Assembly (NCBI GenBank): GCA_937888715.1
Contig: CALARU010000259.1
Span: forward strand, 1-49,378
Direction: 5' to 3'
Length of the DNA stretch: 49,378 nucleotides
Source: an uncultured Planctomycetaceae bacterium
GTDB taxonomy: Bacteria; Planctomycetota; Planctomycetia; Gemmatales; Gemmataceae
Part shown: positions 47,378 through 49,378 of the stretch, piece by piece
How positions within the stretch are numbered: position 1 is the stretch's first letter
Layout: the number at the start of each line of letters is the position of its first letter
The notes under the pieces: generated by a model
Database searches by the model: none
What the model saw: only the letters and a program-made list of their open reading frames with translations
What the model was told of the DNA's origin: nothing
Position numbers and translations under genes: made by a program

Positions 47378-48865
47378 ATGGCAGATCCACGCGGCTTCTT
47401 GAATATTGAACAACAAAAACACACTCCTCGTCCGGTTTATCAGCGGATCAAGGATTACAACGAAATATATCAACCTCTGCCCGAAGAAAGTATTCGTGCG
47501 CAGGCTTCGCGTTGCATGGATTGTGGCGTCCCCTTCTGCCATACCGGTTGCCCACTCGGAAATCTGATCCCAGACTGGAATGATTTAGTTCATCGGAATC
47601 GTTGGGAAGAAGCCTTGAAGGAACTTCACAGCACCAACAATTTCCCCGAATTTACTGGCAAGACCTGCCCTGCACCATGCGAGGCTTCCTGCGTTCTGGA
47701 AATTACATCACCTGCTGTAACAATTAAAAACATCGAGCTCGCAATTGTTGATAAAGGCTGGGAAATGGGGTGGATTGTACCTACTCCCCCTGAAAAAATT
47801 TCGGGAAAGAAAGTTGCTGTAATTGGTAGCGGGCCCGCTGGACTTGCAGCAGCTCAACAACTTTGCAGAGCTGGTCACGCTGTTACCGTTTACGAAAAAG
47901 ACGATATGTATGGCGGCTTGCTCATCTATGGCATCCCTGACTTCAAAATGGGGAAATTCTACATCGAACGCCGAATCAATCAAATGGAAGCTGAAGGCGT
48001 AAAATTCATTAACAACGCTGATGTTGGTAAAACCATCAGTGCCGACGAAATACTCTCTTCGTTTGATGCAATATTAATGGCTACCGGCTCTAGCATTGCC
48101 CGAGAATTAGAAATACAGGGCAGGAATATGGCAGGTATCGAACTTGCTATGCCTTTCCTTACTCAGCAAAATCGAAGGTGCCTCGATAAACCCGTCACCG
48201 AAAAAGAAATCCTGGCTACAGGTAAAAATGTAATCATCATCGGTGGGGGCGATACTGCTGCCGATTGTTTGGGTACCTGCCACAGGCAAGGAGCAAAATC
48301 GATTATGCAAATCGATTACAACCCAAGACCTCCTGAGAATTACAATTCTGAAACACCATGGCCCCTTTGGCCCAAGATCCTGAGGTTATCCCCTGCGCAT
48401 GAAGAAGGTGGCAGAAGAGATTGGCAAATTAAATCCTCGAAATTCGTTGGCGACTCCAAGGGCCATGTAAAAGAACTTCATGCTGTAAGAGTCAACCAAT
48501 ACTATGACGAAACAGGCGAAAGGCAGTTTGAAGAAATCAGGGGTACGGATCTTGTATTCCCCTGCGATCTGGCTTTGATCGCGATCGGCTTTACCGGTGC
48601 GGACAAAGGGTTGCCAGCAATGTTTGATGTAGAAATTGATTCAAGAGGAAACATTGGCACGGGGCGCAAAAACTACAGAACTTCCAAGCCGAATATTTTT
48701 GCTGCGGGTGACGCTAGACGCGGGCAATCGCTTGTCGTCTGGGCTATCGCTGAAGGCAGAGAAGCAGCTAGGGAAATCGATGAATTTCTTATGGGTAAAT
48801 CCAGTCAATTAAAAGCACGAGACACCTCATTGCTTCAAATTGGTTTACCTGGGATGACAAAATAA
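47378..48865 (+). CDS. gltD: Glutamate synthase, small subunit (NADPH-binding)
   Basis: Takes electrons from NADPH through FAD and iron-sulfur clusters to GltB. A 495-residue protein. N-terminal cluster cysteines 46, 49, 54, 58 (CMDCGVPFCHTGCPLGN) and 97, 101, 105 (CPAPCEASC) are present. The FAD fold VAVIGSGPAGLAAAQQL begins about residue 146 and the NADPH fold VIIIGGGDTAADCLG near 290; the C-terminal ARRGQSLVVWAIAEGREAA is typical. Same transcript as gltB. Confidence 0.98.
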   Translation: MADPRGFLNIEQQKHTPRPVYQRIKDYNEIYQPLPEESIRAQASRCMDCGVPFCHTGCPLGNLIPDWNDLVHRNRWEEALKELHSTNNFPEFTGKTCPAPCEASCVLEITSPAVTIKNIELAIVDKGWEMGWIVPTPPEKISGKKVAVIGSGPAGLAAAQQLCRAGHAVTVYEKDDMYGGLLIYGIPDFKMGKFYIERRINQMEAEGVKFINNADVGKTISADEILSSFDAILMATGSSIARELEIQGRNMAGIELAMPFLTQQNRRCLDKPVTEKEILATGKNVIIIGGGDTAADCLGTCHRQGAKSIMQIDYNPRPPENYNSETPWPLWPKILRLSPAHEEGGRRDWQIKSSKFVGDSKGHVKELHAVRVNQYYDETGERQFEEIRGTDLVFPCDLALIAIGFTGADKGLPAMFDVEIDSRGNIGTGRKNYRTSKPNIFAAGDARRGQSLVVWAIAEGREAAREIDEFLMGKSSQLKARDTSLLQIGLPGMTK

Positions 48866-48890: not shown

Positions 48891-48933
48891 TACCCCTAGG
48901 CAATGATTTGATCAATCACTTTGCGTAGGGGTA
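48891..48933 (+). terminator. Terminator-like hairpin after gltD
   Basis: TACCCCTA (48891-48898) pairs with TAGGGGTA (48926-48933), and inner GCAA/TTGC extends it with a mismatch. It begins 25 bases past the gltD stop codon. The following CTTTGTTGGAATTT is T-rich but not a clean run. Confidence 0.65.
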
Positions 48934-49023: not shown

Positions 49024-49236
49024 ATGAACACGCAAAATTCAAACAGAATCAATAAGTCTATTGTAACGGTTAGTCCGCTTTTAGAGCCTTCCGATGACAA
49101 AGATTTTTGGCTTTCTAAAACCCCTTCCGAGCGCCTTCAATTTGTTGAAATATTAAGGCAACTTAACTATGGCCAATATCAATCTACCGCTCGACTTCAA
49201 AGAATTCTTACAGTTACTGAACGAATACCAGGTTAA
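49024..49236 (+). CDS. Small protein paired with a nucleotidyltransferase (possible antitoxin-like partner)
   Basis: A 70-residue soluble protein. Its core PLLEPSDDKDFWLSKTPSERL and ILRQLNYGQYQSTARLQRIL matches a small protein that, from memory, precedes nucleotidyltransferase-fold genes in many genomes, often annotated as hypothetical. Its end overlaps the next start (49169) by 68 bases in another frame, typical of a translationally coupled pair. Whether the pair is a toxin-antitoxin system is not shown by the sequence. No clear ribosome binding site is seen before the ATG. Confidence 0.7.
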   Translation: MNTQNSNRINKSIVTVSPLLEPSDDKDFWLSKTPSERLQFVEILRQLNYGQYQSTARLQRILTVTERIPG

Positions 49237-49378
49237 ATACATGCTAATTGGAGGCTATGCAGAGCTTACCATGGCTACCCTCGATCTACAGGGGATATGG
49301 ACATCTGGATCGCCCTGAATGAACATAATGCCGACCAATTAATAAAAGCCATCATTGCTTTCGGATTTAATACCTCCA
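49169..49378 (+). pseudogene. Nucleotidyltransferase-fold gene, frameshifted and cut by the window end
   Basis: The ATG at 49169 opens MANINLPLDFKEFLQLL, then VKYMLIGGYA, the start of a minimal-nucleotidyltransferase fold. At about 49261-49264 the frame breaks: reading on gives a stop at about 49316-49318. One base further, the other frame gives YHGYPRSTGDMDIWIALNEH, exactly the expected continuation, including the metal-binding Asp-x-Asp (DMD). A single missing base between GGYA and YHGYP explains it. The gene is thus either a recent pseudogene or has a sequencing error. The window ends in the following helix (AIIAFGFNTS). Confidence 0.8.

Follow-up and report, generated by a model that had tools for sequence, protein, structure and literature searches.

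A frame break in a small nucleotidyltransferase gene of a planctomycete, and one-sided decay of a candidate toxin-antitoxin pair

The locus and its frame break

The window analyzed here is a whole contig (C259) of 49,378 bases, one of the 414 contigs of the genome G000. Its right-hand end carries a gene that stops at 48865, which we take to be a glutamate-synthase-small-subunit-like gene (gltD), followed by a gap of 158 bases and by two overlapping genes, a small partner at 49024-49236 and a nucleotidyltransferase (NTase) gene that starts inside it at 49169. The features of this region are as follows:

48894-48924, strand not given: upstream member of an exact 31-base direct repeat whose second copy is at C22:241-271
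49024-49236, + strand: small partner, an open frame of 70 aa, putative antitoxin
49169-49261, + strand: 5' part of the NTase gene, sharing 68 nt with the partner and ending with the GGYA of the active-site region
49261-49267, + strand: frame break, where the homology switches reading frame
49267-49377, + strand: 3' part of the NTase gene in the neighboring frame, YHGYPRSTGDMDIW..., with the T-x-D-x-D motif; the rest lies at C22:2-187

In the frame of 49169, the 5' part of the NTase reads MANINLPLDFKEFLQLLNEYQVKYMLIGGYA, and this frame meets a stop at 49316-49318. From about 49267 to the end of the contig, the NTase homology continues in the neighboring frame. A single protein of a congener, G003, aligns with both halves (81% over query positions 1-71), so the change of frame is not a matter of chance. 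The first-pass annotation had described GGYA and YHGYPRSTGDMDIW as two halves of one gene lying in neighboring frames, with an intact partner upstream, and both statements hold. It had also proposed looking beyond the window and comparing the gene with an intact homologue. The C-terminus of the enzyme was indeed found in frame, down to its stop, where a second contig of the genome begins (C22:2-187), and the congener reads the enzyme in one open frame of 150 aa with no shift needed. Judged against this congener, about 50 bases appear to be absent between the two contigs.

The frame break is real as a feature of the sequence; its exact cause may be either a lesion or a sequence error. It lies about 114 bases from the end of the contig. 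Over the 106 NTase codons outside the overlap, with the C22 tail included, G000 and G003 differ by 29.5 changes per 68 synonymous sites and by 15.5 per 250 non-synonymous sites, which gives a dN/dS of about 0.10, and no other stop is present. Because this low ratio is found on both sides of the break, the break is either very recent or a sequence error near the contig end.

The same locus was compared in six relatives of the same genus (G001-G006). The NTase is intact in G003, and in G002 it contains two in-frame stops and an internal deletion. One common deletion in G001, G005, and G006 has removed nearly the whole enzyme gene; it begins at the partner stop and spares about the last 25 codons of the NTase, and in all three the deletion junction supplies the partner stop at the same position (the G006 contig ends soon after this junction). 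G004 carries neither gene, and there gltD and the convergent downstream gene are about 40-45 bases apart (L067, G004:C152:8800-11000). Elsewhere in the genus, the NTase has been lost along at least two further routes. An open partner is present in the window and in five of the six relatives, which are all that carry it. Purifying selection on the partner in the NTase-less congeners, sought through dN/dS and through comparison with gltD and intergenic DNA, was not demonstrated in this small and little diverged sample; in the three genomes concerned, 3-7 of the 144 bases of its unique part differ, compared to 9-10 of 163-164 in adjacent intergenic DNA. In G001, the NTase remnant and the convergent gene are separated by an insertion of 6-7 kb (L068 1269-7483, G001:C236). 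It encodes a PLD-like protein, a SNF2-type helicase, and a protein of 444 aa, with PADLOC matches to the PDC-M27, DrmD, and Zac families.

Spread of the pair and its flanking repeats

A profile built from six NTases was run against a collection of named genomes and confirmed at least 493 relatives, the best 80 of which were kept. These belong to Planctomycetota, Chloroflexota, Acidobacteria, Poribacteria, Desulfobacterales, cyanobacteria, and other groups. Among these best 80 of at least 493, the partner lies directly upstream of the NTase at all 79 testable loci; at the 80th, the NTase match starts 10 bases from a contig end. The overlap between the partner and the start of the NTase match measures 44-68 nt and equals 2 modulo 3 in 79 of 79 cases, so that the two genes keep one relative frame throughout. 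The partner is mostly about 60-80 aa long at the named loci, and a stop in the NTase is present at one of the 80 (L168). All 37 of the strongest NTase matches (E <= 1e-40) have an open partner, the NTase itself being broken in four, and at least five of 35 weaker matches that were fetched have no clear overlapping partner. Judged from sequence comparison, the pair is a widespread module that has no name in the libraries searched. In phage records, no NTase match reached E <= 1e-5, and of the 21 pattern matches that a single scan of viral contigs in IMG/VR returned, none was confirmed. No description of the pair was seen among the papers listed from the accessible literature on NTase toxin-antitoxin systems, orphan antitoxins, DUF6036, DUF2204, and pSYSA, which included few subscription papers.

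In the window genome, a 31-base exact repeat stands on both sides of the pair (window 48894-48924 and C22, L004, 241-271), and downstream of the pair the repeat forms the 3' end of a convergent gene, presumably DUF1501-like. Within the genus, an exact or near-exact repeat of 30-38 bases of this gene end flanks the pair in G000 (31 exact), G003 (36 exact), G002, and G005. The downstream copy in G001 is located beyond the 6-7 kb insertion, the G006 contig ends before reaching it, and the empty site of G004 holds one copy.

The repeats were then sought at 73 named loci (75 less L154 and L165, which are slicing artifacts at a contig start). A flanking direct repeat at E <= 1e-3 was found at 20 of them, and both copies lie within 175 bases of the pair at 13, a limit that was set after the data had been seen; two of these 13 (L125 and L133) have an identical repeat and may not be independent. 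Controls at four shifted positions, which were not matched for gene ends, gave a repeat in 12 of 255 cases and a close one in 1 of 255. Repeats also occur at 6 of 53 loci of the class, three of them from the window's genus, and some read as the 3' end of a flanking gene (e.g., L121 and L172). Such repeats suggest an insertion that duplicates a gene end, which may have occurred, for example, through integration of a circle by recombination at that point. We see a chance only slightly short of even that one broad reading is right as a whole, namely that the pair is a mobile cassette of about 0.7 kb, in some cases bordered by a second copy of the 3' end of an adjacent gene, and belongs to an unnamed and widespread NTase toxin-antitoxin family with a short antitoxin of a new kind, whose toxin half is lost far more often and which has left orphan antitoxins in many Planctomycetota.

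Several plasmid copies are found in particular genetic surroundings. On two cyanobacterial plasmids (L273 1-5420 and L274 1-5422), restriction-modification genes surround the pair, with subunit R on its downstream side and subunit S or a methyltransferase on its upstream side, and VapC is its neighbor in one case. On Spirosoma and Fibrella plasmids (L304 and L306; Bacteroidota), the NTase relative makes up the N-terminal part of a protein about 630 aa long, the small gene upstream of it is a different one, and the Fibrella copy adjoins an AbiE pair.

The two proteins

The NTase was modeled with high confidence (pLDDT 94.2, pTM 0.89), and the best fold match of the model is the tRNA-modifying toxin MenT1 (Z 13.1 over 134 residues, rmsd 2.9; Foldseek E 4.3e-6), followed by TM1012 (a putative NTase) and by LnuA and ANT(2'')-Ia, which are antibiotic-modifying NTases for lincosamides and aminoglycosides. 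MenT1 is also the first match of the NTase profile in the PDB (E 1.2e-4), with T41, D43, and D45 aligned to its TxDxD motif. In an alignment of 56 of the 80 named sequences, G28, G29, T41, D43, D45, and K133 are invariant in 56 of 56. The fold and active site seen in MenAT toxins (GG/GS, T/S-x-D-x-D, and a C-terminal lysine) are therefore present; K133 would be the counterpart of the MenT1 lysine, an equivalence that does not come from the alignment. In the excerpt of PMC10435456 available to us, T39 and D41 are among the mutated active-site residues of MenT1, and MenT toxins are recognized by DUF1814.

No match to DUF1814/AbiEii of Pfam was obtained at E <= 1 for two full-length NTases or at E <= 1e-3 for the 56 members. 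PADLOC gave weak AbiEii matches in 25 of the 56 (best E 6.5e-5). The weak Pfam matches among these members at E <= 1e-3 are to DUF6036 (34), Aminoglyc_resit (23), and DUF2204 (14); the congener NTase scores 22.7 bits with Aminoglyc_resit (PF10706), the cut-off being 21. None of the NCBIfam resistance models reaches its cut-off with the NTase, and the Lnu(E) model scores 14.2 bits against a cut-off of 350.

The partner was modeled as three helices with middling confidence (pLDDT 78.5). A Pfam search with 50 members gave no convincing family (best stray E 0.019), and a fold search of the PDB gave no match at E <= 0.001, the best of a second look having Z 3.1. No MenA1 chain was present among the sequence matches in the PDB at E <= 10, a search in which small proteins are easily missed. 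Likewise, no match to AbiEi was found in Pfam (50 members) or PADLOC (three partners). The HEPN domain is about twice as long as the partner and has the motif R-x4-6-H; no HEPN match was found in the 50 members, and there is no histidine at their invariant or nearly invariant positions. On these searches, the partner has no recognized DNA-binding domain, and it may have a divergent DNA-binding fold. MenA1 is a 68-aa protein encoded upstream of its toxin, with two helices resolved and no apparent DNA-binding domain, and it blocks the MenT1 active site, as given in the same excerpt (PMC10435456). By analogy, the partner is a putative antitoxin that resembles MenA1 in size, position, and helical make-up, not in sequence.

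One-sided decay, its readings, and known systems

Partner searches in 397 genomes of the class gave at least 57 places in at least 51 genomes, the window included, and 392 genomes of the phylum gave at least 27 further places besides the window's own. An NTase was scored as intact when one frame ran over at least 130 profile positions without a stop. Of the 84 partner loci found in Planctomycetota, 47 have both genes open, 34 have an open partner with a broken, truncated, or missing NTase, three have both genes broken, and none combines an intact NTase with a broken partner. The window is among the 34, and it would fail the NTase length rule regardless because of the contig end. On a stricter reading, the partner is shortened or fused at 5 of the 34 (G140, G042, G240, G350, and G434), leaving 29 one-sided cases and eight with both genes broken. 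When G001, G005, and G006 are counted once, about 27 one-sided losses fall in the NTase and none in the partner. With lesions distributed purely according to length (about 380 NTase-only bases and 144 partner-only bases), such an outcome would have a probability of about 2 in 10,000, detection bias being ignored. The asymmetry is partly biased, since each search favors loci where its own gene is intact and scores candidates in each genome only up to a cap.

Some lesions are informative by their position. In-frame NTase deletions that keep one frame were found in G127 (L192, profile positions 46-63) and G348 (L207, positions 30-60), and as they fall in or beside the catalytic region, these are probably inactive alleles. 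At L201 (G232:C182), the opening 20-odd codons of the NTase continue without a change of frame into a long ATP-binding-like protein (436 residues counted from the start of the NTase), which looks as though a different gene had taken the place of the enzyme. Internal deletions at L288 (G434) and L212 (G350) appear to join the partner in frame to the NTase tail.

A similar pattern was observed on plasmids, for which 13 records with an NTase match were available and 10 were looked at (without H7, H8, and H10). Both genes are open on the Geminocystis plasmid and on both Acidisarcina plasmids; in Acidisarcina the partner is an open ORF, although its profile match looks truncated. The NTase is truncated and the partner open on pSYSA of Synechocystis 6803 and on a near relative in strain B12, and in Annamia dubia the NTase is split and the partner open. 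The NTase is truncated in Synechocystis PCC 7338, and both genes are broken in PCC 7339. As complete plasmids repeat the decay pattern, the assembly of metagenomic genomes alone does not explain it. On pSYSA (L272 2356-2680), the partner ORF is missing from the PLSDB gene table, and the truncated NTase behind it is listed as hypothetical; the pair was not seen in the available part of a published toxin-antitoxin list (PMC4963859).

A one-sided loss common to many related bacteria suggests that of the two halves the enzyme does the harm. Comparison across loci supports toxin-first decay well beyond the window. The first-pass annotation had expected that, if the pair were toxin-antitoxin-like, the enzyme would be lost and the partner would survive. 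This expectation stands for the congeners and over the 84 loci; for the window itself, it would apply to the extent that the break is of biological origin.

We regard it as probable that the pair consists of a MenAT1-like candidate toxin, the NTase, and its antitoxin, the partner, and that it is decaying on the toxin side. The two ORFs would then form a mobile two-gene toxin-antitoxin-like module. The downstream gene would encode a small MenT1-like NTase, probably a toxin that adds nucleotides to RNA such as tRNA, and the overlapping upstream gene a helical 70-aa protein, probably an antitoxin that binds the enzyme and blocks its active site. As the NTase gene starts inside the partner gene, the antitoxin is probably synthesized first. 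During decay of such a module, the enzyme half would go before the partner, since the toxin would stay active if the partner disappeared before it, and the window genome would have suffered one recent frame break in the enzyme gene with its partner intact.

Other explanations were considered for the break and for the pair. The break at 49261-49267 may be a sequencing or assembly error, with an NTase that is intact across C259 and C22. Its position near the contig end and the 106 conserved codons that flank it in total, free of any other stop, speak for this, and we consider it a serious possibility that nevertheless falls below an even chance, as the NTase of close relatives carries differing lesions at this locus, several of which are deletions that base-call errors could not produce. 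Given those differing lesions, a lesion in the window would be unsurprising. An error here is compatible with the toxin-antitoxin reading, and both can hold together. Programmed frameshifting, which the first-pass annotation had offered and which would fuse both parts into one protein, has a single point in its favor, the conservation of both halves in the window genome. It was rejected as extremely improbable, since the NTase is read in one uninterrupted frame at 47 of the 84 loci, G003 manages without a shift, and the lesions at other loci are scattered over different places.

The enzyme may alternatively be an accessory NTase, for example one that modifies antibiotics or metabolites with the aid of a small helper, which is not toxic and decays by chance when unneeded. 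The Aminoglyc_resit matches (23 of 56 members, with the congener just over the cut-off), a fold near LnuA and ANT(2'')-Ia, and the failure to demonstrate selection on the partner in NTase-less congeners are in line with this. We nonetheless find it rather unlikely: by length, about three in ten single lesions would be expected in the partner-only part, where 0 of the 34 one-sided losses are found, and the strongest NTase matches have a partner in 37 of 37 cases. The roles may also be reversed, so that the partner would be a toxin and the NTase would act as antitoxin by modifying it. This is the case in HEPN-MNT (type VII) systems, in which MNT adds NMP to the HEPN toxin (PMC11586414, in the portion available). 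The layout, a small NTase next to a small helical protein, is the same. The direction of decay makes this reading quite improbable, as the frequent loss of the NTase with survival of the partner (34 of 84 loci) would leave a live toxin; moreover, the partner is about half as long as a HEPN domain, and its 50 members searched have neither a HEPN match nor an invariant or nearly invariant histidine.

If the toxin-antitoxin reading is correct, a pair that is mostly annotated as hypothetical, from Planctomycetota and Chloroflexota to cyanobacteria, would represent a new branch among the MenT-like toxins, one that has a short antitoxin of its own. Alleles with a lost toxin are numerous in nature, some of them through in-frame losses within or next to the catalytic segment, and they would hint at the harmful half ahead of experiment, and the model cyanobacterium Synechocystis 6803 would bear such a remnant on pSYSA.

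Four known systems can be set beside the pair. In HEPN-MNT, too, a minimal NTase and a small helical protein make up a two-gene module that is mobile (excerpt of PMC2701414). In contrast, the NTase is the antitoxin there (excerpt of PMC11586414), whereas here it is the half that is lost, and no HEPN match is present. AbiE (AbiEi-AbiEii) has an NTase-fold toxin, and weak PADLOC matches to AbiEii were obtained here; however, AbiEi is a two-domain antitoxin (PMC7319586, in the part available), and the partner has 70 aa. LnuA and ANT(2'')-Ia share the fold (Z 10.1 and 9.8), with the congener protein just over the Aminoglyc_resit cut-off, but the pair has a conserved overlapping partner gene and reaches the cut-off of no NCBIfam resistance model. 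MenAT1 (Rv0078B-Rv0078A) of Mycobacterium tuberculosis differs in that the NTase here has no DUF1814 match and the partner has no detected sequence relation to MenA1. Since DUF1814 was looked for and not found, we propose that the pair may work like MenAT1 and do not claim membership. The likeness lies in the arrangement, with the gene for a small helical antitoxin (68 aa in MenAT1) upstream of that for a small NTase toxin, and in the enzyme itself, for which MenT1 is the best match both in fold (Z 13.1) and among PDB sequences (E 1.2e-4), with the TxDxD motif aligned.
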